From a virus, in IMG/VR virus record IMGVR_UViG_3300047564_000884, positions 1 to 22,613 of that record: a DNA stretch of 22,613 nucleotides; one strand, 5' to 3'. Numbering within the stretch: the stretch's first letter is position 1; every line of letters starts with the position of its first letter. Below the pieces are notes generated by a model. That model did no database searches. It saw only the letters and a program-made list of their open reading frames with translations, and was not told the origin of the DNA. A program made the translations under genes and the position numbers. Shown in pieces: positions 437 through 17,479 of this stretch.

Positions 437-440
437 TCTA

Positions 441-1493
441 TCACTCCTCGGTCAAAAGGTCAACATCTGCATCGACTTTATCATAAAGGTCAACAAATGC
501 TTGCTTGGTATCATCATCAAAGCGATTCAGGCAAGTGCGGATTGCTTTGATCTTATCACCAAAGATGGCATAAGCGCGGACAATGTGCACAAGGCGGCGA
601 GTGCTGATCACTTCATCCACACCACCATCATAGAAGGTTTTGCGGATCAGTTGAGCCCAGTCAGCAAGATTCTTGCAGAAAGATTCATCATCACACAAAC
701 GGGACAGAATCTTGATCTCTGTCGAAGGATTCGGATACTCCTGCTCAAAAGTCACAGGGAAACGCTCCAAGAATGCTTCGTTGAGAACATTAGTACCGAT
801 GAAACGACCGTCATCAGAACCCTTACCCTTGGTGTTAGCGGTAGCAAAAACTTGGAAACCAGGTGCAGGTTTCACATAACGACCAATCTTCTTCAGGAAA
901 ACTCCCTTACCTTCAAGGATGGACTGAAGACACAGGATCTTGTTAGATGCAAGGTCAATCTCATCCAGCAGCAGAATAGCACCGCGATTCAGTGCTTGAA
1001 CCACAGGACCATCGTGCCACACGGTCTCACCGTTGACGAGACGGAAACCACCAATCAGGTCATCCTCGTCGGTCTCAATGGTGATGTTGACACGAATCAA
1101 CTCACGTCCAGACTGAGCACATGCTTGCTCAACACCGAAAGTCTTGCCATTGCCAGACATACCAGTGATGAACACAGGATAGAACAGGCGAGACTGGATA
1201 ACTTTCTTCACGTCAGAAAAGTTCCCGAACGGGACAAAAGTATCATCTTTCTGCGGAATAAGGTTCAAGATTTCCCGAGCGGGAATAACCATTTCTTCTA
1301 GTTGCTCCCTTGCTTCTTGAATGGTCAGGTTCCACTTGCCACGCTTAACCTTGTACTTTTCAAGGTGACGAGTAACGGTTGGATAAGTAATATCGGTCTG
1401 TGCACAATATGCACGAACATCAGCCGCAGTAATCGTGTCACCGTACATATCACGGAGCGATTCAACGACGGAGACAGTGGACACTCGGGACAT
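441..1493 (-). CDS. cobS: CobS/MoxR-type AAA+ ATPase
   Basis: AAA+ ATPase of the CobS/MoxR clade, commonly called cobS in cyanophages. In bacteria CobS is the ATPase that, with CobT and CobN, inserts cobalt during aerobic cobalamin synthesis. Numbering from the chosen start, Walker A is GMSGNGKT (111-118), Walker B is AILLLDEID (172-180) and a sensor-like ATANT lies near 217. The N-terminal ~20-55 looks like a small helical DNA-binding-type segment. The open frame extends to an ATG at 1505, but that codon has no ribosome site. The ATG at 1493 has GAGG 6 bases upstream, so I start there (350 aa). It lies downstream of the CobT-like VWA gene and just before the DUF3310 gene. No CobN is in view, so metal insertion is uncertain and a general MoxR chaperone role is possible. 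Confidence 0.88.
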   Translation of the reverse strand: MSRVSTVSVVESLRDMYGDTITAADVRAYCAQTDITYPTVTRHLEKYKVKRGKWNLTIQEAREQLEEMVIPAREILNLIPQKDDTFVPFGNFSDVKKVIQSRLFYPVFITGMSGNGKTFGVEQACAQSGRELIRVNITIETDEDDLIGGFRLVNGETVWHDGPVVQALNRGAILLLDEIDLASNKILCLQSILEGKGVFLKKIGRYVKPAPGFQVFATANTKGKGSDDGRFIGTNVLNEAFLERFPVTFEQEYPNPSTEIKILSRLCDDESFCKNLADWAQLIRKTFYDGGVDEVISTRRLVHIVRAYAIFGDKIKAIRTCLNRFDDDTKQAFVDLYDKVDADVDLLTEE

Positions 1494-1507
1494 TGAGAAC
1501 CTCATTG

Positions 1508-1523
1508 ATTATGTATACATAAT
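1508..1523. repeat. Perfect 16-bp palindrome before cobS
   Basis: ATTATGTATACATAAT is identical on both strands. It sits between the terminator at 1530-1552 and the cobS start. On the minus strand an extended -10-like element (TGGTATTAT, -10 at 1519-1524) overlaps one arm, which is a suitable position for an operator. No convincing -35 was found. The operator role is inferred. Confidence 0.5.
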
Positions 1524-1529
1524 ACCACG

Positions 1530-1552
1530 AAAAAAGCGCCCTTTGGGGGCGC
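1530..1552 (-). terminator. Rho-independent terminator after the VWA gene
   Basis: On the minus strand a 6-bp GC-only stem (GCGCCC paired with GGGCGC, 5-base loop) is followed directly by six T. It lies 23 bases past the VWA stop codon, so cobS probably needs its own promoter or read-through. Confidence 0.85.
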
Positions 1553-1574
1553 AGTGGACGGTTTGCAAATTGTC

Positions 1575-3722
1575 CTAGGCAATCACCGAGATGAACTTGG
1601 ACAAGATTTTTTTGTTAGTCTTCTTCCCACCATAGGATTTTTTAAACGATGAGAGAATTTGAGCCTTAGTTGCTTGCTCTGGAACACTGAATTCGGAAGA
1701 TGATTCCAAAGAACTACAGGACAAACCGATCAACTCATCGTATCCAAGAGTAGAAGAAAAGGTGACAGACTTTTCCTTTGACCAAATTTTAGTACGTTCT
1801 TCCTGTTCAGTATACTCAAGATCCATACGCTTGATCCAAGACCTGAAATCGCGATTGGGAAGAACACGTATACCAATCATATTCATGCCGGGGAAGCAAT
1901 CTTTGAGATTGGTAATAAGAGTAGAAGTTAGATTCCAATACTGATAACCGATTGGATAATTATTTCCAGTTTTTCGGCAACGAACATATCCATTAGCCCC
2001 AATGCTACGCACACCCACATACTCTTCATCATCATAGTTGCGTTTGATATCAACGTAACGAAGAGAGTTGCAAGCTTCTCCATCAGTCAATATGACACAA
2101 TGCACTTTCTGAGTCTTAGAACGTTTGCAGAAGTCTGGGATAATGGTATGCATGGAAACAATTGCCTCATTCAGAGGAGTTCCAGAAAGAGACATTCTTG
2201 CTGGAAGAGTATAAGGAGTTGACTTATAAGTACGATAGACTTCGAAAGTTTTAGCAACCCGATACATGTTGCGGATATGCCGATCAAAATCTTTCGTCTT
2301 GGTAGTAGAAGACAGAATGTTCAGCATGTTGAACATCTCAGGTAGAGCAAAATACCCAGACTTTTTCTCAGTATGCTGTTGAGGGATTAGATTACCATCT
2401 TCAAAGCGAGAAGAGGCTCTGTAATTCCACTCGGAAGAGAATGCATACACATCAAAAGGAATGTTAGTTTTTTTACAAAACCAAACAAGATTGAACAACT
2501 GCTTCAGAGTTGGCATCATCTGATCATTCATAGATCCAGACCAGTCAAGAACAAAGACAAGTCCATGACTCTTACCATCCTTTGTGATGGAAATCCTTTT
2601 GAAGATATCTTCGCTGTATCTGTAGGTGTGAAGTTTGGCAGTATCAAGAACACCACTCTTAGAGACAGAGGTTCTAGCATATGCATCGGCCGATTTACGG
2701 CATTCAAACTCCTTTACCAGATAATTGACTTCTCGCTGAGCATCTTTCTTATATGAAGAGAACTCTTTATCAATGTCAGAGAACATCAGTTCATAAGAGA
2801 ACCCATTGAGTTCCATTTCGTTTTCCCAAAAACCTTCGATATACGAATGAATTTTTTCAGGATCAACAACAACGGTATCAAGATTAACTTGAGGAATTTC
2901 CATGTAATATGGATCTCCCCAACTATCATCCTGAGAAAGATTTTGAACGTTCTCACTCAGAGAATCTGCTGTACGAACCTGAGGTTCTTCACTGTGCTCC
3001 CCTCCAGTAGAAGACTGTTGCTCGGAAGTTCCACCATATGATTCACCATCCTTAGGTTCTTCAGACTCACCATCTTCTTTTTGCTGACTTCCAGACTCGT
3101 CAAACGACTCAGATACCTGGCCGTTATTATTCTGTTGCTGAGAGTTTGTTGTAGGGGGTTCTACCGCCTCTTCTTTCTTAGGAGACTTACAGTAGTTCCA
3201 AAGAGCAACGGCGGCCTCAAGAGCATCCTGAAAGGTCTCAGCAGCATCAACCATATCAACGATCTCTTGCTCTTTCTCAGTAAAATCAATCTTCAAGAAA
3301 GATCCGATCTTGAAGTGAAGATTTACACGATCCGCAAGATTCATCTCATTGACGTTATCATCCTCAAGGGAAAAGAAATCGTCATCTTGAAGTTGCTTGT
3401 ATCCACGATAAAAAGTCTTAGGAAGACCAAGGTAACGACGCTTCATCAACTTTTCAATGCGAGCATCTTCAGTCACATTGACAAATTGATGAGGCACTTT
3501 GTACTGCTTCGAGATCTCCTCATCAGGAGTGTAGAGAGCATGACCAACCTCATGAGCAACCAGAAGGTCATACACTTCTTCGGTTGCTTTCTGCCAGAGA
3601 GGCAGAGTCAAAACACGATTGTGCACATCAAAAGAAGCCGTTTCACACTTCTTGTGCTCGATGATGAGATCTTCGGTTGCAAGGAGTTTGGCGAGGGTTC
3701 CTTTGACGGCGTGATTGATCAC
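1575..3722 (-). CDS. CobT-like protein: HEVGH metallopeptidase motif plus VWA domain
   Basis: The start is a GTG at 3722 with AGGA 8 bases upstream; the ATG-less start overlaps the preceding small frame by 4 bases (GTGA). Residues 57-61 are HEVGH, a zinc-metallopeptidase motif. VTEDARIEK follows at 83-91, with a glutamate well placed as third metal ligand. Residues ~180-270 are a Ser/Glu/Gln-rich acidic linker, as in CobT. A C-terminal von Willebrand A domain begins near 385 with an intact MIDAS: DWSGS (393-397), then SGTPLNEA and LTDGEA. CobT-type VWA proteins partner with CobS/MoxR ATPases, and the next gene is exactly that. A joint protein- or metal-remodelling machine is inferred. Whether the HEVGH site is proteolytic cannot be told from sequence. 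Confidence 0.85.
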   Translation of the reverse strand: MINHAVKGTLAKLLATEDLIIEHKKCETASFDVHNRVLTLPLWQKATEEVYDLLVAHEVGHALYTPDEEISKQYKVPHQFVNVTEDARIEKLMKRRYLGLPKTFYRGYKQLQDDDFFSLEDDNVNEMNLADRVNLHFKIGSFLKIDFTEKEQEIVDMVDAAETFQDALEAAVALWNYCKSPKKEEAVEPPTTNSQQQNNNGQVSESFDESGSQQKEDGESEEPKDGESYGGTSEQQSSTGGEHSEEPQVRTADSLSENVQNLSQDDSWGDPYYMEIPQVNLDTVVVDPEKIHSYIEGFWENEMELNGFSYELMFSDIDKEFSSYKKDAQREVNYLVKEFECRKSADAYARTSVSKSGVLDTAKLHTYRYSEDIFKRISITKDGKSHGLVFVLDWSGSMNDQMMPTLKQLFNLVWFCKKTNIPFDVYAFSSEWNYRASSRFEDGNLIPQQHTEKKSGYFALPEMFNMLNILSSTTKTKDFDRHIRNMYRVAKTFEVYRTYKSTPYTLPARMSLSGTPLNEAIVSMHTIIPDFCKRSKTQKVHCVILTDGEACNSLRYVDIKRNYDDEEYVGVRSIGANGYVRCRKTGNNYPIGYQYWNLTSTLITNLKDCFPGMNMIGIRVLPNRDFRSWIKRMDLEYTEQEERTKIWSKEKSVTFSSTLGYDELIGLSCSSLESSSEFSVPEQATKAQILSSFKKSYGGKKTNKKILSKFISVIA

Positions 3723-3895
3723 AGTGTTTTCCTGAACGTCTCTGTATTATACGAAAAAACCCTGCGCTTGGCAGGGTTCATGTGACACTTTTTGAAGTGG
3801 TTCAGACGGGCTTTTGCCTGTCGTAATGCCTGTGGTTTAAGGTGGCGTTTCTGCTCCTTCTTGGAGTGATGCTGCCAGTTTGGAACGTTAGTCAC
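3719..3895 (-). CDS. Possible 58-aa basic protein
   Basis: A frame opens with GTG at 3895, with GGAGG 4 bases upstream. The start overlaps the stop of the 106-aa gene (GTGACTAA). The frame ends with a TGA that overlaps the GTG start of the VWA gene. Coupling at both ends suggests a real gene. The product is rich in Lys, Arg, His and Gln with no recognisable domain. Against it, the frame runs through a strong terminator and a promoter-like element, so a full-length message needs read-through. I give it less than even odds. Confidence 0.4.
   Translation of the reverse strand: MTNVPNWQHHSKKEQKRHLKPQALRQAKARLNHFKKCHMNPAKRRVFSYNTETFRKTL
3746..3774 (-). promoter_or_regulatory. Putative sigma70-type promoter for the VWA gene
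   Basis: On the minus strand CTGCCA (3769-3774, 4 of 6 to TTGACA) is separated by 17 bases from a perfect TATAAT (3746-3751). The -35 lies within the terminator hairpin of the upstream unit. The -10 is 24 bases before the GTG start. Confidence 0.5.
3753..3778 (-). terminator. Rho-independent terminator upstream of the VWA gene
   Basis: On the minus strand AACCCTGC pairs with GCAGGGTT (8 bp, 5-base loop), followed by a T tract that runs out of the stem. It would end transcripts coming from gp46 and the 106-aa gene. Confidence 0.75.
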
Positions 3896-4208
3896 GTTGC
3901 CTCCAGTCCTCTGGTTTGTCTTCCGTCCACCAGTCTACCATATCATCAACGCTTTGAAAACCACGTTTACCAAAACGTTCATGACCAAGACCGCCAATGT
4001 CAAGTTGATTCAAAAAATCATCCATGTCACCTTGCTGCATATCTGGATTCTCTGCAGTTCTTCTTGCTTGTCTAAGGATAGTGGCAGCAGATCTATTAGC
4101 CTTTGCCAATTTCTCAGCCCATATCATATCCGCTAAATCAACACTTTCACCCAATACAATCTTCTGACAAATTGCTTCTAGGCGAATCCGATATTGTGTG
4201 GATAACAT
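3888..4208 (-). CDS. Conserved-looking hypothetical protein (106 aa)
   Basis: I do not recognise the family. The N-terminal ~55 residues are helical and charged (RLEAICQKIVLGE, then a Lys/Ala-rich stretch and LRQARR). The C-terminal third is acidic with tryptophans (VDDMVDWWTEDKPEDWRQRD). There is no signal peptide or membrane segment. ATG at 4208 has AAGGAA 5 bases upstream. It follows gp46 by 21 bases, and a late-promoter-like AATAAATA overlaps the gp46 stop, so it may be transcribed late even though it sits behind recombination genes. Confidence 0.75.
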   Translation of the reverse strand: MLSTQYRIRLEAICQKIVLGESVDLADMIWAEKLAKANRSAATILRQARRTAENPDMQQGDMDDFLNQLDIGGLGHERFGKRGFQSVDDMVDWWTEDKPEDWRQRD

Positions 4209-4226
4209 ATTTTCCTTTCGCTGGAG

Positions 4227-4234
4227 TATTTATT
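4227..4234 (-). promoter_or_regulatory. Late-promoter-like box AATAAATA
   Basis: 7 of 8 bases match the T4 late box TATAAATA. It overlaps the gp46 stop codon and lies 18 bases before the 106-aa gene. Confidence 0.45.
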
Positions 4235-5945
4235 CTTTGACTAGACGAGAAAAAGATCCGACTTTTTCAAACGTAATAGTTCCAGCGAATTTATCATGTA
4301 GTTCACTGTTGTGAGAGATAACAAAAACGTTTGCATCTTTGATGATATATCGGACAATTTTTAGGAACTCTTGAGTTCCATTACTATCCAAGGATGAATC
4401 AAATACTTCATCCATGATCAGAAGGTTCGTATTTACACTATTTCTTACTCGTGCAACTTCTCTCCATGTGAATAGCAGAGCCAAGTCGATACGCATCTTT
4501 TCACCCTCAGAAAAAGAAGCATAAGAAAACTTCTCGTGAATGGGTGACTGTACTGTTTCGTTGAATTCTTCATCAAGATTAAAGTTGATGAAGAAGTCCA
4601 TCATACGGATGTATTTGTTAACTTTTTGATTAATCAGAGGAAGATACTTTTTGACAATTTGGCGTTTTACACCACCGTCCTTGAGGAGGGAGAATGCGAA
4701 ATCATTGTATTGTAAATTGTTCTTCTCTTCTGATAATAGGTCGTAACTTAAACTCAGCTCTGCCTTGTACTTTTCTAGCTTGTCATACTCAGAATTTCTA
4801 TTCTTGACCTGATCGGTAACTCTTTGAATTTCACGTTCCAGAGTTTCTCTGGACTTGTCAAGTTGAGCAACCAAAGTCGTGGTGTTAGAAATTTCATAGG
4901 TTAGAGAAGTAGCCTCCTTTGAGAGATCGACAAAGCGGTTCTCTTTGGACTCCTCTTCTTGTATTTTGTTCTCAAGTTCACTGAGACCTTCTACCAACTG
5001 ATCTATAGAAGCATTGAGCTCCGCAATTCTATTTAACCGGTTTTCTTCCTCAATATCTTGAGTGCAGGTAGGGCATACCGTATTTTCGTTAAAAAATGTA
5101 TGCTCTTTTACAAGATTCTCTTTTTTCGTATCAATCTTTGCTTTCAGATTATGCAGTTTACGAACGCTTTTGCTAGCATTTGCTAACTCTTCCATCTCAG
5201 AATTCAGTTCTTGAAGCTTGCTTTGCTTCGTACTGATCTTGGTCAGATGATCTTCACGTTCCTTAATAATCTCTTCGATCTTCTTTCTTTTCTCATCCAC
5301 AATCTTCTCACCATTCTTGGTGATCTCTTCGATGAGTTTGCTCTGAAGATCTACCTTATCGATAAGGTTGTCTTTCTTATGCTCTAAACTGATAACCTTA
5401 TCTTTACCTTGACGAATACGATCCTTAATAATCATATTCATTGCTGAGAAAATCTTAATGTCAAGAAGATCTTCAATCACTTCCCGTCGATGAGAAGTTG
5501 GGAGCTGCATAAAAGGAACGAATCCGCTACTGCCAAGAATAACAATCTGAGTAAAGGACTTATAGTTTAACTTCAGAATATTCTGTTCTAGAAGTTTTTG
5601 ATTTGTCCTATCATCAGATTCACGGTGTAGTGGTTTACCATTGACGTGTACATCAAACACGTTTGGTTTAATACCACGTCTTACAAAATATTTCTTTTTG
5701 CCAATCTTGAATTCAATTTCAACAACACAGTCTTTTTCGTTTTGACTATTTGCTAACTGCGGCTTGTTGATATTCCTAAACGGTTTGTTGAACAGAACAA
5801 AGCACAACGCATCAAGCAAAGTAGATTTGCCAGAACCATTCTTACCGATGATGATCGTGTTGGGATGTTCGTTGAGATTGATTTCAGTCCAATAGTTTCC
5901 AGTGGAAAGAAAATTTTTCCAACGAATCTTTTCAAAGATGATCAT
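4230..5945 (-). CDS. 46: gp46, Rad50/SbcC-like recombination nuclease subunit
   Basis: ATPase subunit of the T4 gp46/gp47 complex, which resects DNA ends for recombination-dependent replication and degrades host DNA. The 571 aa length is close to T4 gp46. Walker A is GKNGSGKS (34-41). Two coiled-coil arms (roughly 175-280 and 300-400) flank a zinc hook, CPTC (291-294). The ABC signature FSEGEKMRIDLAL and Walker B LLIMDEVFD lie near the C-terminus, followed by an SHN switch histidine. The short hook arms are typical of phage Rad50. The start is 6 bases past the stop of the DUF3110 gene that separates it from gp47. Confidence 0.97.
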   Translation of the reverse strand: MIIFEKIRWKNFLSTGNYWTEINLNEHPNTIIIGKNGSGKSTLLDALCFVLFNKPFRNINKPQLANSQNEKDCVVEIEFKIGKKKYFVRRGIKPNVFDVHVNGKPLHRESDDRTNQKLLEQNILKLNYKSFTQIVILGSSGFVPFMQLPTSHRREVIEDLLDIKIFSAMNMIIKDRIRQGKDKVISLEHKKDNLIDKVDLQSKLIEEITKNGEKIVDEKRKKIEEIIKEREDHLTKISTKQSKLQELNSEMEELANASKSVRKLHNLKAKIDTKKENLVKEHTFFNENTVCPTCTQDIEEENRLNRIAELNASIDQLVEGLSELENKIQEEESKENRFVDLSKEATSLTYEISNTTTLVAQLDKSRETLEREIQRVTDQVKNRNSEYDKLEKYKAELSLSYDLLSEEKNNLQYNDFAFSLLKDGGVKRQIVKKYLPLINQKVNKYIRMMDFFINFNLDEEFNETVQSPIHEKFSYASFSEGEKMRIDLALLFTWREVARVRNSVNTNLLIMDEVFDSSLDSNGTQEFLKIVRYIIKDANVFVISHNSELHDKFAGTITFEKVGSFSRLVKE

Positions 5946-5951
5946 AATTTA

Positions 5952-6215
5952 TTATTGTTCAGATCTAGGAGGAATCACAATATCGCCAGGGGTTATTACA
6001 CTATATCTGTATCCGTTTTCTGCACAGGTTTTTACAGCTACTGCAAAGTTGACTTCGATAACTCTCAAAGGTACATCTTCATCAGCCTCTAACATCATAG
6101 CATATCTTTCAGCATCTTCCTCCTCTTCAAAGAAGAATAACACTTTGTTACCATCTTTGTCTAGGACGGCATACGCTCCTTCAGATTGTTTGCTGCCATG
6201 AATTAGAATGTACAT
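5952..6215 (-). CDS. DUF3110 small protein
   Basis: This 87-aa protein matches the DUF3110 pattern of small cyanobacterial proteins. It has an opening beta strand (MYILIHG), then GNKVLFFFEEEEDAERYAMM (22-41), LEADEDVPL, and an ending GYRYSVITPGDIVIPP. Function is unknown for the family. It begins 1 base inside the gp47 stop (TAATG) and ends 6 bases before gp46, so it is embedded in the nuclease operon and probably made in step with it. Origin from a cyanobacterial host is the simplest reading, but either direction of transfer is possible. Confidence 0.8.
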   Translation of the reverse strand: MYILIHGSKQSEGAYAVLDKDGNKVLFFFEEEEDAERYAMMLEADEDVPLRVIEVNFAVAVKTCAENGYRYSVITPGDIVIPPRSEQ

Positions 6216-7261
6216 TACTCAACTTCGCATGATAAAGAATAAACGTCTGTAAGAATTTTTTTCAACTTTAATTTATCCATATCAAAACCAGGTTCACAAT
6301 CATCAACATATCTATTCAAGATAGAAATAGTGTTCTCAGTTTCTTCAACTTCAAACTCTTCGGATTCTTGAATTGAGTAATTCTCAAGAACTTTAAGATC
6401 GTGAACACCAGCCATGTATAGTTTGTCAATTACCTTTTCCAACCTGGTGTCAGAAGATTTCTTTTTAACAATCAACTTTACATGCTTGTCTTTGTATGGA
6501 GTTGCATTGAATAACTGAGGAGACTCATCATTATAATAGACAATCTCAAAAAGAGTGTGAGGATTATCATATCTCTCAACCTCTAATGTCTCGGTATCGA
6601 TGATGTGGAATCCTCTGGGATCATTTACATCATTCCAGTAAATCTCGTAAGGATTTCCAAGGTAATAGATGTTGTCAGACTGCCCTCTATGATGATAGTG
6701 TCCAGAAAAGACTTTCTTAAACTTAGAGAACAACTCAGGATCATCTCCATGTTCCATCATGTAATTTTTGTTGGGCCAGAATCCACTGAGTTCAAGGTGT
6801 CCAAAGACAACACTTGCTTTGGTTCCATTGATCATGTCTAGAGTTTTTGCTCTGTTTTCATTATTAATCCAAGGAACCATCAGAGCAAGCATTGAACCGA
6901 GTTTTATCTCAGTAGCGTCAGCATAACAGATGATGTTATCATACTCTCGTAACAATAACTCAATAGAATTAAGGTTGTTAGTATCTTTATAAAAGGCAGT
7001 ATGGTTACCCACAATAGTATGCACTGGGATTTCAAGATCACTAAGAACACCGTAGTAATTTTTCTTAGCCCAGTCGAGACTCCAAAAATCAATACCTTTG
7101 CGAGAATCGAAAGTATCACCCATATCGATGACAGCATCGACAGACTCTCTTTTAATTGTTGGAAAGAAAACTCTTTCATAGAACTTTAAAAAGTGATTAT
7201 GGAGACTTTGATTTCCTTTTCTCGCACCAAAATGTTGGTCAGTAATAATAGCGACTTTCAT
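6215..7261 (-). CDS. 47: gp47, Mre11/SbcD-like nuclease subunit
   Basis: Metallophosphoesterase partner of gp46, acting as exo/endonuclease on double-strand ends. All phosphodiesterase motifs are visible in order: TDQHFG (Asp and His), DMGDTFDSR, the GNHTAF Asn-His pair, GHLELSG and SGHYHHRG. Its 348 aa is close to the T4 protein. The ATG overlaps the gp55 stop by 4 bases (ATGA), so translation is likely coupled to the late sigma factor gene. The C-terminal ~100 residues form the capping and Rad50-binding part. Confidence 0.97.
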   Translation of the reverse strand: MKVAIITDQHFGARKGNQSLHNHFLKFYERVFFPTIKRESVDAVIDMGDTFDSRKGIDFWSLDWAKKNYYGVLSDLEIPVHTIVGNHTAFYKDTNNLNSIELLLREYDNIICYADATEIKLGSMLALMVPWINNENRAKTLDMINGTKASVVFGHLELSGFWPNKNYMMEHGDDPELFSKFKKVFSGHYHHRGQSDNIYYLGNPYEIYWNDVNDPRGFHIIDTETLEVERYDNPHTLFEIVYYNDESPQLFNATPYKDKHVKLIVKKKSSDTRLEKVIDKLYMAGVHDLKVLENYSIQESEEFEVEETENTISILNRYVDDCEPGFDMDKLKLKKILTDVYSLSCEVE

Positions 7262-7734
7262 CGATTGAGTTTGGTCTGAATATTATCTTTGATGGTATTA
7301 TAGTCGGAATGACTGCCATACATTACATTATTGTCAACAACCATGACTTCATCATATCCGTTACGCTCGATCATTTTATTTTTAATGTCAAGTTGTTTCT
7401 TCTCTTTCTGAATACGGCGCAAGAAAGCGAAGTGAATAATCTGAGTAAAATATGCAAAAGGATTCTTCGATTTTTCAGGATCGAAGTTATTGATGTATTG
7501 GACACAGTTCTCTACTCCATCAGAGATCATGTCATCTCTAAACATGTAATTGATGAAGTTTGGTTTGTACGACAGGTGTGTCGCAATCTTTAAAAAGCAC
7601 TCTCCGAGATAATTCGGAATGATCGGTCTGGGTTGACCTAATTCTTGAGCCTTGGCAACCTTACTCTTGTAGACGATGATTGCCTCAAGAAGTTCTTTGT
7701 TGTTGACGTAATGTTCAGATCTTTTCTTGGGCAC
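7258..7734 (-). CDS. 55: gp55, late-transcription sigma factor
   Basis: Phage-encoded minimal sigma factor that directs host RNA polymerase to late TATAAATA-type promoters. In T4 it works with gp33 and the sliding clamp. The 158-aa protein has region-2-like sequence at ~70-116: ISDGVENCVQYINNFDP, NPFAYFTQIIHFAFLRRIQ. There is no region 4, as in T4 gp55, which is slightly longer at about 185 aa. The start is GTG at 7734 with GGGAG about 9 bases upstream; no nearer ATG gives the family's N-terminus. A strong sigma70-type promoter lies just upstream, as expected for a gene made before the late genes. Late boxes found elsewhere in the window fit its activity. Confidence 0.93.
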   Translation of the reverse strand: MPKKRSEHYVNNKELLEAIIVYKSKVAKAQELGQPRPIIPNYLGECFLKIATHLSYKPNFINYMFRDDMISDGVENCVQYINNFDPEKSKNPFAYFTQIIHFAFLRRIQKEKKQLDIKNKMIERNGYDEVMVVDNNVMYGSHSDYNTIKDNIQTKLNR

Positions 7735-7760
7735 TACTAATATCTCCCTTATCTGAGGAT

Positions 7761-7789
7761 ATTATAACATTTTTTACAGGGCTTGACAA
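7761..7789 (-). promoter_or_regulatory. Sigma70-type promoter for gp55
   Basis: On the minus strand TTGTCA (7784-7789) is followed after 17 bases by a perfect TATAAT (7761-7766), 26 bases before the gp55 GTG. Five of six -35 bases and all six -10 bases match the host consensus, so the gene can be read by unmodified host polymerase. Confidence 0.85.
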
Positions 7790-7811
7790 GTTTGCAAAAT
7801 ATCTGTACAAT
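7783..7811 (+). promoter_or_regulatory. Divergent sigma70-type promoter, antisense direction
   Basis: On the plus strand a perfect TTGACA (7783-7788), 17-base spacer and TACAAT (7806-7811) form a near-consensus promoter. It shares the palindromic CTTGACAAG with the gp55 promoter, back to back. No plus-strand gene follows, so any transcript would be antisense to the 144-aa gene and possibly uvsW. It is seen in sequence only. Confidence 0.65.
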
Positions 7812-7833
7812 AACCTTTGTGGAGGTTCAGAAA

Positions 7834-8268
7834 TCAATTAGAAGCTTCTTTAATAGCTGAAGGGAGTTTGAAGTCTTTTTCTAATTTGGTTCTGGCATCG
7901 GAAACCGTTCCCAACGATCCCATCTTGCTGGTGATCTCCGATTCGAATGACCAATCTGGAGACTTCAAGTTTGCGATTCTTTGAAGGTACTCATTGTAAG
8001 AATCGATCAAATCTTCATTTTCAATAACGTTGATCTCTGTCATGGTAATCACATTTGACAGCCTGATCATGAAAATATCATCTTCAGGAAGAGTCATCCA
8101 TGGTTCAATCTTTGTCTGAACCATAAGTCCTTTTGTAATAATTTTCATCTTTACAGGATTTTGTAAGATGATGATGGGGTCTTCTGGTTCTAGGTCGATG
8201 TCGATGAGCGCAAAGATTTCTTCACCAGAGACCAACTTTAATACTGCATAAAATTCTGTATCGTTCAT
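7834..8268 (-). CDS. Hypothetical protein between uvsW and gp55 (144 aa)
   Basis: There is no firm family assignment. The first ~85 residues look like an all-beta barrel: AVLKLVSGEEIFALIDID, PIIILQNPVKMKII, and IFMIRLSNVITMTEI. The two-part hydrophobic pattern resembles an Sm-like fold, though this is only pattern matching. The remainder (~86-144) is helical and polar. The ATG overlaps the uvsW stop by 4 bases (ATGA) with AAAGGA just upstream, so it is translationally coupled to uvsW. It is probably an RNA- or protein-binding accessory to the uvsW/gp55 operon, by position alone. Confidence 0.8.
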   Translation of the reverse strand: MNDTEFYAVLKLVSGEEIFALIDIDLEPEDPIIILQNPVKMKIITKGLMVQTKIEPWMTLPEDDIFMIRLSNVITMTEINVIENEDLIDSYNEYLQRIANLKSPDWSFESEITSKMGSLGTVSDARTKLEKDFKLPSAIKEASN

Positions 8269-9731
8269 TTATCCTTTAGGCTGATGTTTACTATATCATA
8301 ATTAAACTTCTCTTCGTTATAAATCTTGATCCTTTCTACCAAATGATTAAGAGTGTAATTTCTCTTTTTGGCGAAGGAGACATCATCAGCGATGTCGTAA
8401 AGTGTTGCTCTTGTTTTATTGTTTCCTTTTCTAAGAACTCTACCGATTGATTGAAGGTTTCTAATTCTAGACTTGGAAGGCGAAGCAAAAATTACGTTGT
8501 GTAGGTTTTTAATATTGATACCAGTGGAGAATGTTCCGTAAGAGGCAACGATGATTGCATCGTTCTCTTTTTCTGTGATCGTTCGAACTTGTTCTCGATC
8601 TTCAGTATCAACTCCACCGTGAACAAAGAAAACTCTTCTATGTTCATTTACTGAGGTATTTATTAAATTGAAAAGAGGTAGGCCATGAGTCTCTACTCTG
8701 TTGAAAAGAATGAGTGTATTACCTTTTAAATCAACTGCTAGGTTCTTGATAAAATTATTTCTCTTCTCATGTCCAATAATGTATTGAACCTCATCTTCAT
8801 AGGTTTCAAATTTATGTGGACTGTGCTTGAGTAAAAGAATTTTGATATCAAGTTCTGCAAGATTCTTTTTTTCAATCAACTCGCTGGTGTTGATAGTTTT
8901 ATATGAAGGGCCAAAGAGACCTTCAAGAATCCATTTATGAGTTTGTGATCCATCAAGTGTTCCAGTGAATCCGAAACGATACTTACAGTCACACAATTTG
9001 GACATGATACTTATCAGTGACTTGCTCTTGAACAAGTGAGCCTCATCACCAACAACTACTTCGAATCTTTCAAAATATGTTCTTGGCATCTTGTAAATTG
9101 ATTGCCAAGTTGTTATAATGACTTGCGATTCAGATGTTCTCTCTCTACCACCATAAACTTTATGGCAGTTGGATCCAACGTCCCAACCATAATCGGCAAA
9201 GTCCTTATACATCTGTTCAACCAGAGATGTGGTTGGTACAACAATGAGAATATCTTTTTTGTGTTCAACAAAATATCTGACAATCGAATAGATCATCAGA
9301 GACTTTCCAGAAGCCGTGGGTGAGATTAATAGTCTTCTATTATGTCTCAATGCATCGTAAACGCCATCAACTTGATATTCTCTTGGCGTGTGAGAACATA
9401 TAGAATTCATGTAATCTTTGACACCCTCCTTTGAAATCATTTCATTGACTTCGAAAGGAGTACCGTAAAATTTGTTACTGACGAATTCGTATGTGTAGTT
9501 GTGATCCTTGCAAAACCTGATTAGTTTATCTAACAACCCAACATAGATTTCACCAGTCTGAATATTGAACAAGCGGATTTTACCATCCCACCACTTGTTT
9601 CTGTACTGAGGCATATACTTTGCCCCAGGTACATCAAAAGTAAATTGATCAGATAGTTCGTAAAAGATATGAGGTTCGGCTTGAACACGAAGATAAACTT
9701 CGTTCTTCTTGCCGATGATTAGATGACTCAT
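8265..9731 (-). CDS. uvsW: UvsW, RNA-DNA/DNA-DNA helicase
   Basis: SF2 helicase that unwinds R-loops and branched DNA. In T4 it switches replication from origin- to recombination-dependent initiation. Numbered from ATG 9731, an N-terminal DNA-binding region (~1-105) contains PQYRNKWWDGKIRL. It is followed by Walker A SPTASGKS (137-144), a DEAH-type box GDEAH (228-232) and motif III FTGTLD (255-260). The C-terminal RecA domain has ASYGTFSTGINI and the arginine finger motif SIGRVLRKG. The open frame can be extended 11 codons to a TTG at 9764 inside uvsY. I prefer the ATG 5 bases after the uvsY stop, giving 488 aa, close to T4's ~503. Confidence 0.95.
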   Translation of the reverse strand: MSHLIIGKKNEVYLRVQAEPHIFYELSDQFTFDVPGAKYMPQYRNKWWDGKIRLFNIQTGEIYVGLLDKLIRFCKDHNYTYEFVSNKFYGTPFEVNEMISKEGVKDYMNSICSHTPREYQVDGVYDALRHNRRLLISPTASGKSLMIYSIVRYFVEHKKDILIVVPTTSLVEQMYKDFADYGWDVGSNCHKVYGGRERTSESQVIITTWQSIYKMPRTYFERFEVVVGDEAHLFKSKSLISIMSKLCDCKYRFGFTGTLDGSQTHKWILEGLFGPSYKTINTSELIEKKNLAELDIKILLLKHSPHKFETYEDEVQYIIGHEKRNNFIKNLAVDLKGNTLILFNRVETHGLPLFNLINTSVNEHRRVFFVHGGVDTEDREQVRTITEKENDAIIVASYGTFSTGINIKNLHNVIFASPSKSRIRNLQSIGRVLRKGNNKTRATLYDIADDVSFAKKRNYTLNHLVERIKIYNEEKFNYDIVNISLKDK

Positions 9732-9736
9732 GCTTG

Positions 9737-10168
9737 TTATAATCCATTTTGGAATCTCATCCAATCAATAGCATTTTTGATAGCAAATCCTCTGTTGTTG
9801 AGGGATTTGATAATCTCTTCCAAGAATTTCAAAAGAGTATCATAATACTTGATCTTCAGAGATATTTTCGATAGTTGTTCATCAGCCTCAATGTATCTGA
9901 TGATTGCATCCTTTTCCCTTACTTTGTATGGGAATGGATCTTCTTCATAAACATCAGGGGATGCTTTCCCTGTGTAATAATTCCAACGTTCTAATTTCTT
10001 TTTATTGTAACCGTCAACTACTTTCTCTCGAAGCAGTGTGGTCGTATTGTATATATCCCAGTACTTGCAGTGCAACATTGGGGTTCTGAGGGATTCGTTT
10101 GCAAGATCATCTCTGTCGATCTCGCTATCCTTTTCCCACATTTTTTGAACTTCATCAAGACTCATCAT
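9737..10168 (-). CDS. uvsY: UvsY, recombination mediator
   Basis: Recombination mediator that loads UvsX recombinase onto gp32-coated single-stranded DNA. The 143 aa is close to T4 UvsY (137). It aligns by eye through several landmarks: an acidic N-terminal DEVQKMWEKDSEID, LERWNYYTGKASPD matching the T4 LDYYSGR segment, YIEADEQLSKISLKIKYYDTLLKFLEEI, and the C-terminal NRGFAIKNAIDWMRFQNG, which parallels T4 SRGFAIKHIQDMRAFEAG. Two ATGs open the frame; either could start. It lies directly before uvsW, a neighbour also in T4. Confidence 0.93.
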   Translation of the reverse strand: MMSLDEVQKMWEKDSEIDRDDLANESLRTPMLHCKYWDIYNTTTLLREKVVDGYNKKKLERWNYYTGKASPDVYEEDPFPYKVREKDAIIRYIEADEQLSKISLKIKYYDTLLKFLEEIIKSLNNRGFAIKNAIDWMRFQNGL

Positions 10169-10185
10169 AAAGTAAAAAAACTCAG

Positions 10186-10779
10186 TTAATCTACAAAATC
10201 AGTAGTTAGTCTGCTTCCAGACATATCAGTGATAGTATAGTAAGTATACTTGAAAGATGCTTGTGCTGTAAAGTATTCGGCGTCTGAAACAGTAGCATCA
10301 AAATCTAAACCAGAAAGAGAATATGGAAATAGATCTTTGAATCTTACCTGATATGCTGGATTAAAGTGACTTGTGAGGATAATTAAAGATCCGTCAGAAA
10401 ATTGTTGTCCGTAGTCTGGTTCAGCGATATCGTTGTTGGTTCTAGAGACAGCATCCTCATCTCTTACAAGATCTTTGAACTGTTGAGGAGTTTCTGGAAA
10501 TCCCAGTCCAAGGAGCCAGTTATGAATGGACATGTAGTTTTCTAAATTTTCATCAACAAGAAAACTAATAGTAAGATCACCATATTCCAGTTTTTCTCCT
10601 GGCACATTGATGTCTTTCAAATATGAAGGTTGATTTGCAATTCCCAGTGACAACTCAGGCAATCCAGCTTGTTGGCAAAAGAATGCAACTTTAGGTGCCT
10701 TTGTGATTGTGAATTTGAACCCAACTGGAGACAGAAAATTTCTATTCTGAATCTGTTGAGTGAAGGCAGATCTAGTCAC
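10186..10779 (-). CDS. Tail-tube-fold virion protein (gp19-like paralogue; gp54/gp48 candidate)
   Basis: This 197-aa protein has the layout of the T4 gp19 tube family. It shows an early FKFTI strand, FFCQQAGLPE, an INVPGEKLEYGDLTISFLVDE core, then an amphipathic ENYMSIHNWLLGLGFPE helix. The tail tube gene gp19 in this same window shows the same order of elements: FLVKAAALP, IPFRGRILKIAGDRTF, WTVTVINDTDF, then the EKWMNAINN helix. Tube-fold paralogues in T4 phages cap or initiate the tube (gp48, gp54), so a tube initiator or cap is the likely role. I cannot say which. The start is GTG at 10779, overlapping the previous stop (GTGA). It sits beside uvsY, as baseplate gene 25 does in T4. Confidence 0.72.
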   Translation of the reverse strand: MTRSAFTQQIQNRNFLSPVGFKFTITKAPKVAFFCQQAGLPELSLGIANQPSYLKDINVPGEKLEYGDLTISFLVDENLENYMSIHNWLLGLGFPETPQQFKDLVRDEDAVSRTNNDIAEPDYGQQFSDGSLIILTSHFNPAYQVRFKDLFPYSLSGLDFDATVSDAEYFTAQASFKYTYYTITDMSGSRLTTDFVD

Positions 10780-10940
10780 TCTCTATACTCTTTTAAAATG
10801 TCCAATACTCTATTTAGGGCATCGTGAGCACCGTCATGCCAGTCCCCACTCTTTCCGTAGTTGAGTCCATTGTAAAGTTCATTCTTCAGGTTTAGAACTC
10901 TAACGTTCAATTCATCTTTAGTCACACTATTTCTTGGCAT
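10776..10940 (-). CDS. Small hypothetical protein (54 aa)
   Basis: Unrecognised short protein with an N-terminal MPRNSVTKDELNVRV and a helical body (LNLKNELYNGLNYG, HDGAHDALNRVLDILKEYRE). An in-frame ATG at 10958 would add 6 residues; I chose 10940, which has GGGA 8 bases upstream and overlaps the preceding gene's stop by 14 bases. Its own stop overlaps the GTG of the tube-fold gene, so all three small cistrons here look translationally chained. The helical, charged composition gives no function. Confidence 0.7.
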   Translation of the reverse strand: MPRNSVTKDELNVRVLNLKNELYNGLNYGKSGDWHDGAHDALNRVLDILKEYRE

Positions 10941-11100
10941 AATACTTTTCCCAATCATTTCTCATTGCACCTAATGCCCAAGCATCAGTTAGTTTCTTCG
11001 GGCCTTCTTTCAACAACTGGATTTGAAATGCTGATAGACCAGCCTTCCTCTCCAAATAGTCCCTCCTCCACGATCTCTGCTTTGGGTCGATTTCGCTCAT
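10927..11100 (-). CDS. Small hypothetical protein overlapping its neighbour out of frame (57 aa)
   Basis: The frame begins with ATG at 11100, preceded by GGGAGG 6 bases upstream, one of the best ribosome sites in the window. It stops at TAG 10927-10929, within the first codons of the next gene. The first 116 bases (two thirds) lie inside the 109-aa gene in another frame. The product is compact and charged: MSEIDPKQRSWRRDYLERKA at the start, then LSAFQIQLLKEG, KKLTDAWALGAM, and WEKYYAKK at the end. The even spread of aromatic, hydrophobic and charged residues and the strong start argue it is translated. I recognise no domain. Confidence 0.68.
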   Translation of the reverse strand: MSEIDPKQRSWRRDYLERKAGLSAFQIQLLKEGPKKLTDAWALGAMRNDWEKYYAKK

Positions 11101-11314
11101 CCTCTTCCTCCCATTGTTTTACGATGTCTTCTGCCTGTTTATCAACAGACTGCATTGTCATTTCAATTTTACCTTCAATCCATTTTTCTTTTAACCAAGC
11201 GATAAAACCTAATGCAAGATGATTGATAGGAAACTTTTGTTTATTTGCCCACCTCTCTGCTTTGTGATACCACATCTCTTCTCCACCCCAATGGTGTTCA
11301 AATTTGTGTTCCAT
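10985..11314 (-). CDS. Hypothetical protein downstream of gp23 (109 aa)
   Basis: I start this frame at ATG 11314 rather than at the upstream end of the open frame (11398). The upstream part runs through the gp23 terminator and would place a late promoter inside the gene. A GATAAATA box lies 20 bases before ATG 11314. The ribosome site is weak. The first ~55 residues are tryptophan-rich (HHWGGEEMWYHKAERWANKQ, then FIAWLKEKWIEGK). The rest is acidic. The last 38 codons overlap the 57-aa gene in another frame. No function can be assigned. Confidence 0.72.
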   Translation of the reverse strand: MEHKFEHHWGGEEMWYHKAERWANKQKFPINHLALGFIAWLKEKWIEGKIEMTMQSVDKQAEDIVKQWEEEDERNRPKAEIVEEGLFGEEGWSISISNPVVERRPEETN

Positions 11315-11334
11315 AAAGTTTAGAGTAGGCGCTA

Positions 11335-11342
11335 TATTTATC
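11335..11342 (-). promoter_or_regulatory. Late promoter box GATAAATA
   Basis: 7 of 8 bases match T4 TATAAATA. It lies directly past the gp23 terminator and 20 bases before the 109-aa gene, restarting late transcription. Confidence 0.6.
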
Positions 11343-11345
11343 CAT

Positions 11346-11372
11346 AAAAAAAAGACCCCTCTGAGAGGGGTC
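11346..11372 (-). terminator. Strong terminator after gp23
   Basis: On the minus strand GACCCCTC pairs perfectly with GAGGGGTC around a 3-base loop, followed by eight T. A second small hairpin (ACGGG-TGA-CCCGT, 11382-11394) lies between it and the gp23 stop. It closes the capsid transcription unit. Confidence 0.93.
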
Positions 11373-11399
11373 GAATGAGTAACGGGTGACCCGTCCAAC

Positions 11400-12818
11400 T
11401 CACATCAGATTCTTGACGCTTACGCGGCGATAGTATCTGTTGGTAGCGGCAGTGATAGCACCGTAGGCCTGGGTGGTTCCCTCAGCGAAGGGGTTAGCAA
11501 CCATGCCATAACGGGTCTTAAAGCCGATCTTGGGCTGGAAGGTGTTCTCCCCAACGGCACGAACCATTTGGAGGGGAACGTAGGGGCAGTAGAAGAGACC
11601 AGCGTCATAGGGGCTAGAACCCTTATAACCAACAACATAGTACTGCAGAGCAGTGCTGTTGCTAGCGAAGGGATCGATATAAACGCGGTACTTACCGTTG
11701 ATGGTTCCAGCAAAGGTGTTGCCGGTGTCGTCAACGTTCAGGTTGGCGTTCAGAGCGGGGGTGTAGTCGAGTACACCAGCCATGGTCAGAGCAGAAGCAA
11801 CGTCAGCCGAAGTCAGGATGATGTTGCCCTTTCCTCTACGAGTTCTCTGAGCGATAGCGTTCGCATCTCTTTCGATTTGGAACAGCAGACCCTTGAACTT
11901 CTCAACCGACCAACGACCGTTGGAGTCGATATCGAGGTCAAATTGACCAGCGGTAGCAACGTTGGTTTGAGCGCCAGCTTCAGCAACCTTATAGATGGTT
12001 CTGATAACTTCACGGTTGATCTCAGCCAGAATCTCAGTCGAGAGAATGTTGGCGAGTTCAGCCTCAGCGTTCAGACCGTGGATTGCCTTAAGGTCTTGTG
12101 CCAGTTCCAGCGAGTATTCTGCCTTCAGAGCACGGCTCTTAGCAGTAACGGTGACTTTCTCGATCGAGAAGGCCATCTTGTTGAACTCATCGCCGCTCTC
12201 ACCGAGGGTCTCAGAGTTCAGAGTGCTCATGCCCTGACCAACGCTATAATCGGCGGGAGCGCCGTTAACGTCCAGGATACCAGGGTTAGAACCACGCTGG
12301 AGGGTTGTACCGAAACCAACGGAACCGCTGGAGTCAGTGCCACCGGTGTAGTTACCTTGGGTAGCGTCGTAGCCTTCGCGCTGAGCAGAGAATGCCGAAT
12401 CGGGCTCGTTGAACAGTGCCTCGGTTCCGGTCATGTTCTCGTAGCGAGAACGCATTGCGAAGATCAGTCCAGTGGGGCCGCTCATGGGTTGAACGCCAGC
12501 GAGGTCATAAGCGACCAGGTTGGGCATCGAGCGACGGATGAGGCTGATCAGAACGGGGTCAAAACCACCAGTGGGGTTGCCGCTATCGGTTCCACCAGTA
12601 CCGTTGTAGTATGCACCACCGCCAGCCGAGAACGACTGGGTGGGGGCTTCCATCAGGTTGTGACCACGATTGAAAGCTTGCTCCTCCATGAGGAACTTTT
12701 CTTGGTTTTCCAAGAGAGTGGCAGTAACTGCACGACGATGGGCGTCCTTAATAGGATCACATCCAGCGGCATCCAGAAGGGGAGCCCACTTCTCTTGAAG
12801 CTGTTGCGAGTTAAACAT
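11400..12818 (-). CDS. 23: gp23, major capsid protein
   Basis: HK97-fold major head protein of T4-like phages, forming the hexamers of the shell. The N-terminus MFNSQQLQEKWAPLLD is typical of cyanophage gp23. The protein is 472 aa (T4: 521). A gp21-type cleavage site (L/I-x-E) is present as LME at 55-57, so maturation would likely remove about 57 residues before APTQSF. The body contains the conserved MPNLVAYDLAGVQPMSGPTG and the C-terminal YYVVGYKGSSPYDAGLFYCP. No gp24 vertex gene is nearby. GC-rich, biased codon use fits high expression. The ribosome site (CAGG) is distant at 10 bases. Confidence 0.98.
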   Translation of the reverse strand: MFNSQQLQEKWAPLLDAAGCDPIKDAHRRAVTATLLENQEKFLMEEQAFNRGHNLMEAPTQSFSAGGGAYYNGTGGTDSGNPTGGFDPVLISLIRRSMPNLVAYDLAGVQPMSGPTGLIFAMRSRYENMTGTEALFNEPDSAFSAQREGYDATQGNYTGGTDSSGSVGFGTTLQRGSNPGILDVNGAPADYSVGQGMSTLNSETLGESGDEFNKMAFSIEKVTVTAKSRALKAEYSLELAQDLKAIHGLNAEAELANILSTEILAEINREVIRTIYKVAEAGAQTNVATAGQFDLDIDSNGRWSVEKFKGLLFQIERDANAIAQRTRRGKGNIILTSADVASALTMAGVLDYTPALNANLNVDDTGNTFAGTINGKYRVYIDPFASNSTALQYYVVGYKGSSPYDAGLFYCPYVPLQMVRAVGENTFQPKIGFKTRYGMVANPFAEGTTQAYGAITAATNRYYRRVSVKNLM

Positions 12819-12863
12819 GCTTCGTTTACCTGTGATTGTTTGAGTTTACTAAAGGGTGCGAGA

Positions 12864-13913
12864 TTATTTGTTGCCGAGAGCGCGGAGATATGCGTTCATG
12901 CGTCCAGCAGGAGCAGCAGGAACGGTTTCCATACCTTCAGTCAATGTCTCAGTTGTTTCTTGCTTGGCAACCTTCTCGGTAGAGAAATACGATTCTCTGA
13001 GGTTTGCCAGCTTCTCGCGATAGGATTCTTCACTCTCAAACTCAACACTTTCAGCAAGAGATGCGAGTTTCTCCTTTTGGGTTACAGCAAGTCCTTCGGA
13101 TACGTCCTTAAGGATGTGATCAGCGACGGACTCACCGAGCCTTTGATTCAGAGAAATATTCTTCTCAATTTGCTCGTTGAGTTTTGCCTCCATGTCATCA
13201 AGTTTGTCTACCATCATTTCGACAACATCATATTTATCGTCAGGGATATTCACATAATGATCTTCAAAAAGACCTCTCATTCCTTGCAGGAACGATTCAG
13301 TCATTTCTGTTTTCAGACCGTGCTCGATCTGCAGTTCGTTTTCCTTGATCCACTCTTCGGAAACGTACTCAAGATAAGCATCGACGCGAGTGACCAATTC
13401 TTCCTTGATCTCCTCAACTTCTTCAACAATGCGAGCGGCGTATGCTTCTTCGAGTTGCTCACGAACTTCAGAAACTTTAGCCTTAACAGTTGCTTCGAAG
13501 ATGATTCTCGCTTTCTCTTGGAATTCTTCCGAGAGTTCTTCGCCAGAGAACAGAGCGGCAACATCTTCTTCGATGTTAACGTCGGTTTCATCTTCTTCGA
13601 TGGTGGACTCATCCACGATTTCTTCGTCAGACTCTACGTCTTCGCCGTAGGTGTTCTTCTTCGAAGCGTCCATTGCTTCCGCTGCTTTTGCTTTAGCGTT
13701 AACTACGTTACGAACATGCGAAAGAGAAGGCTCTTTCAGTTTGGCCGAGTCATCATCGGGCTTGTAGTTCTCAGGAGTGGGGCCACCGAGATCCTCAATC
13801 TGAGCATGTCCAGGGACATAGGTGCTCTTCTTAGATGAGTCCATCGATTCGCCAGCTTTCGCTCCCCTGGTTACAGGGTTCTCCATTTCTTGTAAGTTTT
13901 TTCCAGCGGACAT
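12864..13913 (-). CDS. 22: gp22, prohead core scaffolding protein
   Basis: Major internal scaffold of the prohead, degraded by gp21 during maturation. At 349 aa it is longer than T4 gp22 (269). It is highly charged and mostly helical, with long Glu-rich coiled-coil segments (~95-330), as expected for a core protein. The N-terminal ~90 residues hold two copies of a 15-residue motif (18-32 and 75-89; pattern AKAxExMDxSKKxTY). Between them lies a GGPTPENYKPDDDSAKLK segment also seen in cyanophage gp22. An LQE tripeptide near residue 8 could be a gp21 site. Position between 21 and 23 is the T4 order. A consensus late promoter precedes it. Confidence 0.95.
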   Translation of the reverse strand: MSAGKNLQEMENPVTRGAKAGESMDSSKKSTYVPGHAQIEDLGGPTPENYKPDDDSAKLKEPSLSHVRNVVNAKAKAAEAMDASKKNTYGEDVESDEEIVDESTIEEDETDVNIEEDVAALFSGEELSEEFQEKARIIFEATVKAKVSEVREQLEEAYAARIVEEVEEIKEELVTRVDAYLEYVSEEWIKENELQIEHGLKTEMTESFLQGMRGLFEDHYVNIPDDKYDVVEMMVDKLDDMEAKLNEQIEKNISLNQRLGESVADHILKDVSEGLAVTQKEKLASLAESVEFESEESYREKLANLRESYFSTEKVAKQETTETLTEGMETVPAAPAGRMNAYLRALGNK

Positions 13914-13956
13914 TGTTAACTTCTCCGAAAAAATCGTGTTAAATTTAACCTAAATG

Positions 13957-13964
13957 TATTTATA
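13957..13964 (-). promoter_or_regulatory. Consensus T4 late promoter TATAAATA before gp22
   Basis: An exact 8-of-8 match to the T4 late box, 43 bases before the gp22 ATG and 2 bases past the gp21 stop codon. It would serve the 22-23 unit. Confidence 0.8.
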
Positions 13965-13966
13965 AA

Positions 13967-14617
13967 TTACAAGTTTGCCAAGAAATCTTGGAAGAGATTA
14001 AGTTTGTTCTCTTCAAGTCTTCTAGAGTCAACAAGTGTGTTAATCTTCTTGTAAGTTTTCTCTGCGAGTTTTTCGCGGAGGATGCCTCCATCCCATACCC
14101 AATCCTTTCCTTCCATGATGCCATTGACAAACGCATCAGGAGCGGAAGGATCTGCTACAATATCAGCAGCAGTGGCGAGCATGAAGTCATCATTGACTAA
14201 ACTGTATCCTTCTTTGGTGGGACTTAAAGTTCCAACACCACGAGAGGAAACGCCAAGTTTTACGCCTTCAGATAAGAGAGACTCAGCAATCTTACCCATA
14301 GGAGTAGAAAGGATTTTAGCCTTTCCGATAAAGTTATTGCCTTCTCTTTGCAGAGAAACAATTTTGTGAGATACTCTATCGAGGTTAACTGTAGGCCCAT
14401 CAGGGTGACCGAGTTCGCCTAAAGCACGTCCTTTGTCGATAAAGGTTTCGGTGTATCTCTTTACTTCTCTTTCCATGAGTCCCATGGAATAGACGCGACG
14501 GTTTCTGTTAGGCTGTTCGGTCTGAAGAAAAATTCCTTCGATATACAGGTTCTTCTTACCGTTGCGAGATTCAACGATAACTTCTACCTGTTCGATTTCT
14601 TCTCTGATGAGTTTCAT
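13967..14617 (-). CDS. 21: gp21, prohead core protease
   Basis: Serine protease that cleaves scaffold and capsid proteins during head maturation (family S80, herpes-assemblin-like fold). The 216 aa matches T4 gp21 (212). The catalytic His is in GELGHPDGP (H71), and the Ser is in GVSSRGVGTL (S124 or S125). The conserved ADIVADPSAPDAFVNGIMEG follows at 151-170. The ATG lies 4 bases after the preceding stop. Cleavage targets are visible in gp22 and gp23. Confidence 0.95.
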   Translation of the reverse strand: MKLIREEIEQVEVIVESRNGKKNLYIEGIFLQTEQPNRNRRVYSMGLMEREVKRYTETFIDKGRALGELGHPDGPTVNLDRVSHKIVSLQREGNNFIGKAKILSTPMGKIAESLLSEGVKLGVSSRGVGTLSPTKEGYSLVNDDFMLATAADIVADPSAPDAFVNGIMEGKDWVWDGGILREKLAEKTYKKINTLVDSRRLEENKLNLFQDFLANL

Positions 14618-14621
14618 TTTT

Positions 14622-15124: not shown

Positions 15125-15149
15125 GGTATTAGTTCAAACCTGTATAATT

Positions 15150-15157
15150 TATTTATC
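15150..15157 (-). promoter_or_regulatory. Late promoter box GATAAATA before gp67
   Basis: 7 of 8 bases match the T4 late box. It lies just past the gp20 stop and 25 bases before the gp67 ATG. Confidence 0.6.
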
Positions 15158-15160
15158 TGA

Positions 15161-16834: not shown

Positions 16835-16860
16835 TATCTAAATCCGATTTCTACTATCTC

Positions 16861-16868
16861 TATTTAGG
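16861..16868 (-). promoter_or_regulatory. Late-promoter-like box CCTAAATA before gp20
   Basis: 6 of 8 bases match TATAAATA, 26 bases before the gp20 ATG. The TAAATA core is kept, as at gp18 and gp19. Confidence 0.45.
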
Positions 16869-16876
16869 TGACCTTA

Positions 16877-17455: not shown

Positions 17456-17479
17456 TGTGGAACCTCTAGTCTTTTTTGA

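Follow-up and report, generated by a model that had tools for sequence, protein, structure and literature searches.

Why a virus whose main genes all lie on the minus strand should carry a sigma70-type promoter pointing rightward, with only antisense DNA ahead of it, is the question raised by the uvsW/gp55 junction in the window (the whole stretch of 22,613 nt analysed here, from IMG/VR record IMGVR_UViG_3300047564_000884). The junction is bounded on one side by gp55 (7258–7734, minus strand), which starts with GTG at 7734 and encodes a late sigma factor of 158 aa (PHROG 234, E 8e-69). On the other side lies the gene of a 144-aa Sm-like protein (7834–8268, minus strand; stop codon at 7834–7836), and beyond it that of the uvsW helicase (8265–9764, minus strand; PF21241 UvsW_N, PHROG 16). 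The original prediction had read CTTGACAAG as a -35 box on both strands, and this overlap of the two -35 boxes was located at 7782–7790. The leftward promoter, that of gp55, is present as predicted at 7761–7789 on the minus strand (TTGTCA at 7789–7784, a spacer of 17 nt and TATAAT at 7766–7761; 11/12 match), and a TG precedes its -10 box. The rightward one, at 7783–7811 on the plus strand (TTGACA at 7783–7788, 17 nt, TACAAT at 7806–7811; likewise 11/12), was also correctly said to face no gene, since it has ahead of it only the antisense of the 144-aa gene and then of uvsW. It shows the TTGACA-like -35 and TATAAT-like -10 boxes, 16–18 nt apart, of a sigma70 promoter, and it lies antisense to annotated phage genes, the Sm-like gene and uvsW being on the opposite strand. 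Judged from the distance to the -10 boxes, transcription would start near 7754 (minus) and 7819 (plus), about 65 bp apart.

The two promoters are the best sigma70-like sites in positions 1–20000 and make up two of the four sites of at least 11/12 in the whole window. Two promoters that have a -35 in common and each reach at least 11/12 are found a single time in the window and in 0/120 dinucleotide shuffles, which average 0.46 sites of at least 11/12 in all, so that a chance origin is unlikely, as had been argued. The overlap by itself is cheap, since it requires merely TTGACA followed by A; the improbable part of the pair is the two -10 boxes, each at 17 nt. A search of positions 7000–9000 against Rfam gave no match above gathering scores.

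For the analysis of conservation, loci were gathered solely by gp55 protein similarity, only distinct loci were retained, and the 220 nt upstream of gp55 were scored on the antisense strand with a cut-off of 10.5. An antisense promoter scoring at least 10.5 was found in 70/70 window-like and 35/35 ACG-2014d-like cyanophage loci, in 52/65 Pelagibacter-phage-like and in 3/3 Sinorhizobium-phage-like loci, compared with 3–7% in shuffles and 2–7% in 220-nt antisense segments taken from elsewhere in these loci. These frequencies, set against shuffles and other stretches, are the fair measure of conservation. An exact TTGACA at spacing 17 is present in 68 of the 70 window-like loci, all of which also have the TA...T of the -10 box, an invariance partly due to the scan, which itself demands the A and the T; their spacers have a mean pairwise identity of 51%. 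The junction promoter was found in nine named cyanophages (P-SSM2, P-SSM4, S-SM2 with a spacer of 16, S-PM2, Syn9, P-HM2, MED4-213, ACG-2014d and S-RIM2) and, outside the cyanophages, in HTVC008M, DLP6 and phiN3; in Syn9 and S-PM2 the annotated genes around the antisense site are all oriented opposite to the promoter. Where a sense promoter of gp55 was found in cyanophage and Pelagibacter-like loci, it scores at least 10 in 80–97% of them, and the predicted antisense promoter is conserved at least as well as this one. The boxes and spacing of the antisense promoter thus appear to be under selection in the relatives. The original prediction had staked itself beforehand on conservation of the TTGACA/TANNNT boxes, and these are kept in the gp55 loci of relatives. 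The junction is not a trait of all T4-like phages, gp55 of T4_ev240 and of Vibrio phage V09 being flanked by other genes and lacking an antisense site of 9/12 or better within 250 nt. Comparison of the loci demonstrates a conserved divergent pair of putative sigma70 promoters at the junction of uvsW and the Sm-like gene with gp55, one serving gp55 and the other facing the 3' end of the uvsW operon.

The shared -35 is, as far as the compared loci tell, the geometry of the window's clade and not the conserved feature. The boxes overlap at the window's offset in 62/70 window-like, 8/35 ACG-2014d-like, 2/52 Pelagibacter-like and 0/3 Sinorhizobium-like loci; where there is no overlap they are 7 to more than 100 nt apart, most pairs lying next to each other or separated by tens of bases, and in S-PM2 and P-HM2 each promoter has an exact TTGACA of its own. 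These counts bear on promoter competition, another role offered by the original prediction, in which a polymerase at one of the -35-sharing promoters would exclude the other and so set the timing of gp55. Competition agrees with the exact overlap of the boxes in the window and its 62 close relatives, and opposed polymerases have been shown to compete at strong E. coli bidirectional promoters (PMC12825309). It is unsupported as a general principle, since the antisense promoter stays where the boxes separate, as they do in most ACG-2014d-like, Pelagibacter-like and Sinorhizobium-like loci as well as in S-PM2 and P-HM2, and as the purpose of the pair it appears unlikely.

Immediately 3' of the antisense -10 box lies an inverted repeat, AACCTT-TGTG-GAGGTT (7812–7827, plus strand), which was overlooked in the earlier reading of the sequence. 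Folded as DNA it gives -2.3 kcal/mol on the plus and -1.8 on the minus strand, and the start predicted from the -10 distance, G7819 (or T7818), falls in its loop. The general form is stem-(N)TGT-stem, with the TG 6–8 nt past the -10 box, where initiation is expected. Among the Pelagibacter-like phages a perfect stem (G.T allowed) is found in 45/51 loci and is built from 24 different stems, such as AGGC/GCCT, AACGG/CCGTT, GGTCT/AGACC and CCCT/AGGG. The left and right halves of the repeat were swapped between loci to give 500 chimeras, a test that is inflated by the relatedness of the sequences, from which the count of different stems suffers less; in it, the Pelagibacter-like set had 159 Watson-Crick pairs against 130 in the chimeras (reached in 0/500) and a fold energy of -4.04 against -1.87 (sd 0.27). 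The window-like cyanophages showed the same trend more weakly (189 against 172 pairs, 0/500 chimeras), and in the ACG-2014d-like set Watson-Crick pairs alone gave no significant difference (71 against 68, P 0.10). Mispairs on the non-template strand of the antisense promoter were compared in the Pelagibacter-like set, on which this strand test rests, the cyanophage sets being without power: A.C mispairs number 2 against 8.5 in chimeras (P 0.01), and G.T mispairs are not reduced (27 against 26). Among 91 distinct sequences, 71 prefer to fold on the plus strand and 13 on the minus strand. By covariation and strand bias, this is an inverted repeat in the predicted transcription bubble whose pairing is conserved on one strand.

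Since G.T is tolerated and A.C is rare, the repeat probably acts in single-stranded form, folding into a hairpin in the non-template DNA of the antisense promoter. No such strand preference would be expected of a cruciform or of a double-stranded operator; if the repeat worked as a hairpin in the uvsW mRNA, the preference should be reversed. That the repeat serves the uvsW mRNA, either as its terminator or as a hairpin at its 3' end, was rejected in view of the weaker minus-strand fold, the rarity of A.C on the plus strand and the lack of a U tract after the repeat. An operator would be the binding site of a phage or host dimer that shuts the antisense promoter off, in which case the antisense RNA itself may matter little. 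Repressor operators are typically placed across a start site, as this repeat is, and two copies in phiN3 share identical arms; the arms nevertheless vary widely among close Pelagibacter-like phages with the pairing kept, and differ also between the copies in DLP6, and the avoidance of A.C but not of G.T is a strand preference that a double-stranded site would lack. An operator is thus considered improbable.

By its sequence, the antisense arm belongs to a small class of phage promoters in which the -10 box is directly followed by an inverted repeat centred on the predicted start. Pattern scans of viral contigs returned 236 sites of the extended motif, 162 of them at the uvsW/gp55 junction and 74 elsewhere. 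Each whole genome holds few copies, for which reason the idea of a general many-copy early promoter was dropped for cyanophages. About half of the non-junction copies examined drive a gene, while the others point at the 3' end of a gene on the opposite strand, and several of these others sit back to back with the promoter of a next gene; such next genes include those of glutaredoxin-like and 2OG-Fe(II)-oxygenase-like proteins (named by eye from sequence). A second recurring junction, viewed over about 100 nt on each side of the motif, is seen in four loci (L225, L251, L253 and L287), where a class promoter and the promoter of a glutaredoxin-like gene stand back to back, the former facing the 3' end of a structural-looking gene. 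At L198, L200, L204, L226, L233 and similar loci, a class promoter in sense orientation lies directly 5' of a recurring gene of about 149 aa (MSYENPW...), which is found downstream of large structural genes and has a well conserved leader, GTCCCCGTTAAAGATAAATAATAGCT. In phiN3 (NC_028945), a second start-site-repeat promoter at 159572 (minus strand) has arms identical to those of the gp55-junction copy at 24954. Stenotrophomonas phage DLP6 (KU682439) carries several GGCTTTAC(T/A)-16/17-TATAAT promoters with TGT at the start (e.g. 101535, 119631, 67724, 34734 (+)); some of them have start-site stems, whose arms vary among the copies in that genome.

The predicted leader of the antisense RNA (7828–7850, plus strand) includes the complement of the Sm-like stop codon. 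Many relatives have a TAGCT near +21 of this leader, the window equivalent being TTAGAAGCT, and in many of them it overlaps the Sm-like stop codon. Most gp55 sites that have a TAGCT carry it between +20 and +23, and 22/55 sites elsewhere carry it at +21/+22; both kinds of site exceed shuffles, the count for the non-gp55 sites being inflated by one recurring gene family. Sites resembling boxA/nut in the leader at gp55 sites were not above shuffles.

On the uvsW side, a match to a T4-type late promoter, GATAAATA, lies at 11335–11342 (minus strand), upstream of a series of genes whose last members are uvsY, uvsW and the Sm-like gene; it fits the late motif NATAAATA reported for S-PM2 (PMC2984593), and ATAAATA occurs 6 times in the whole window with 3.5 expected, which is not above chance. 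It is directly preceded, at 11354–11372 (minus strand), by a strong intrinsic terminator (GACCCCTCTCAGAGGGGTC followed by T8) after a gene of 472 aa (11400–12818), a back-to-back arrangement of terminator and late promoter unlike the terminator-less uvsW/gp55 junction. For the uvsW operon no hairpin with a U tract was found, the uvsW-sense strand folding less well, and intrinsic terminators upstream of gp55 are rare (1/70 window-like, 5/35 ACG-2014d-like and 5/52 Pelagibacter-like loci). The 144-aa protein scores 32.4 bits with Pfam PF16243 Sm_like (cut-off 29.4), which its P-SSM2 relative also passes; it corresponds to PHROG 471, named 'methylamine utilization' there and in many GenBank records, and a sequence search of the PDB gave no relative at E 0.01. 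A phage Sm/Hfq-like protein adjoining the predicted antisense RNA would be a suggestive pairing.

The best explanation of the whole, held here with a little less than even confidence, is that early antisense transcription restrains the late uvsW operon or insulates gp55. Starting from the conservation, geometry, covariation and strand bias described above, it proposes a transcript, its timing, its target and a mechanism. Host RNA polymerase would use the antisense promoter early, and an untranslated RNA would begin in the loop of the repeat and cross the Sm-like gene and possibly uvsW. Convergent transcription, base pairing or both would then keep expression of the late uvsW operon low until the late phase that depends on gp55; alternatively, antisense transcription would until that phase block read-through from the uvsW operon into gp55. 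The hairpin would probably form in the non-template strand of the initiation bubble, where it may either tune the promoter or be read by a factor. Counted in favour are the conservation of the antisense promoter, the covariation of the start-site repeat, the other class copies facing 3' ends, the late-type motif ahead of the uvsW side, the scarcity of terminators before gp55 and the lack of a conserved ORF on the antisense RNA, 58/89 loci having no ATG in its first 80 nt. Weighing against it, no intrinsic terminator for the antisense RNA was found within 900 nt in 89 loci, 13/65 Pelagibacter-like loci have no strong antisense promoter in the 220-nt scan, and about half of the non-junction copies act in the sense direction, so that antisense transcription is not the sole use of the class. 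UvsW of T4 is made late and unwinds the R-loops of origins, and an early restraint of uvsW would therefore be meaningful. Antisense tuning of the uvsW operon, which the original prediction had put forward, is a possible role, and the conserved junction suggests a shared antisense step in the early-to-late switch, undescribed so far. A wider claim is distinctly more doubtful, namely that T4-like phages of several bacterial groups put a covarying, start-centred hairpin of the non-template strand behind consensus sigma70 boxes as a new promoter element, most constantly in an antisense promoter through which late sigma factor expression and uvsW control would be linked.

The antisense RNA could instead support the operon, covering the 3' part of the uvsW/Sm-like mRNA and shielding it from RNase E, an effect reported from cyanophage infections. 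PMC10976474 states, citing Stazic 2016, that antisense transcription can shield phage mRNA, and also mentions antisense transcription in Kyanoviridae. The element is, however, also found in phages of Pelagibacter, Stenotrophomonas and Sinorhizobium, and protection is regarded as quite improbable. Still less probable is a replication origin, at which the antisense RNA, annealed as an R-loop, would prime DNA synthesis and be removed by the UvsW encoded next to it, as in T4, where origins use R-loops made from promoters. A promoter without a gene ahead, adjoining uvsW and uvsY, would suit such an origin, but five genomes show no GC-skew turning point at the site and a cumulative range within permutation (skew being weak evidence under recombination-dependent replication), the leader is T-rich on the non-template strand past +50, which implies a weak RNA-DNA hybrid, and class copies elsewhere drive genes. 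That the antisense promoter is a weak, functionless by-product of a two-way -35 box, TTGACAA providing half of it free, is scarcely credible and, as a general account, is refuted by conservation, since loci with separate -35 boxes still have the antisense -10, its spacing and the start-site repeat.

Cyanophages are without the motA, asiA, alt and modA/B genes of T4 (PMC2984593), and the conserved antisense promoter found where the uvsW operon meets the late sigma gene provides a concrete, testable site for early/late timing in these phages. The start-site hairpin, kept by compensatory change across cyanobacterial, Pelagibacter and rhizobial phages, would be an initiation signal without a description in the literature examined. 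No report of the junction or of the start-site hairpin was found there, and this novelty is provisional, key cyanophage transcriptome and antisense studies lying outside the coverage.

Back-to-back divergent sigma70 promoters, that is, two promoters facing away from each other, are a generally known geometry. In contrast to ordinary pairs of this kind, one arm of the present pair is antisense without a gene, is better conserved and has a covarying repeat at its predicted start site. The bidirectional promoters of E. coli and Salmonella (PMC12825309, PMC10268837) are similar in that divergent promoters for the host polymerase overlap through sequence symmetry; there, however, the -10 region is shared and the starts are 7–25 bp apart, whereas the window pair overlaps in the -35 boxes only, with about 65 bp between the predicted starts, and most relatives that do not belong to the window's clade share no box at all. 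The definition of Warman and Grainger (starts 7–25 bp apart, overlapping -10s) accordingly does not cover the window pair. CfrI of cyanophage S-PM2 is described in PMC2984593 as an antisense RNA of a T4-like cyanophage with no function assigned. CfrI, located at psbA and a homing endonuclease gene, has been observed as RNA; the uvsW/gp55 site, in contrast, is known from sequence alone and shows conservation in several phage groups. A hairpin in the non-template strand is a known signal for RfaH (PMC5995543), in which ops works at an elongation pause and is read by that factor; the repeat described here is instead centred on the predicted start site, and its arms vary freely.
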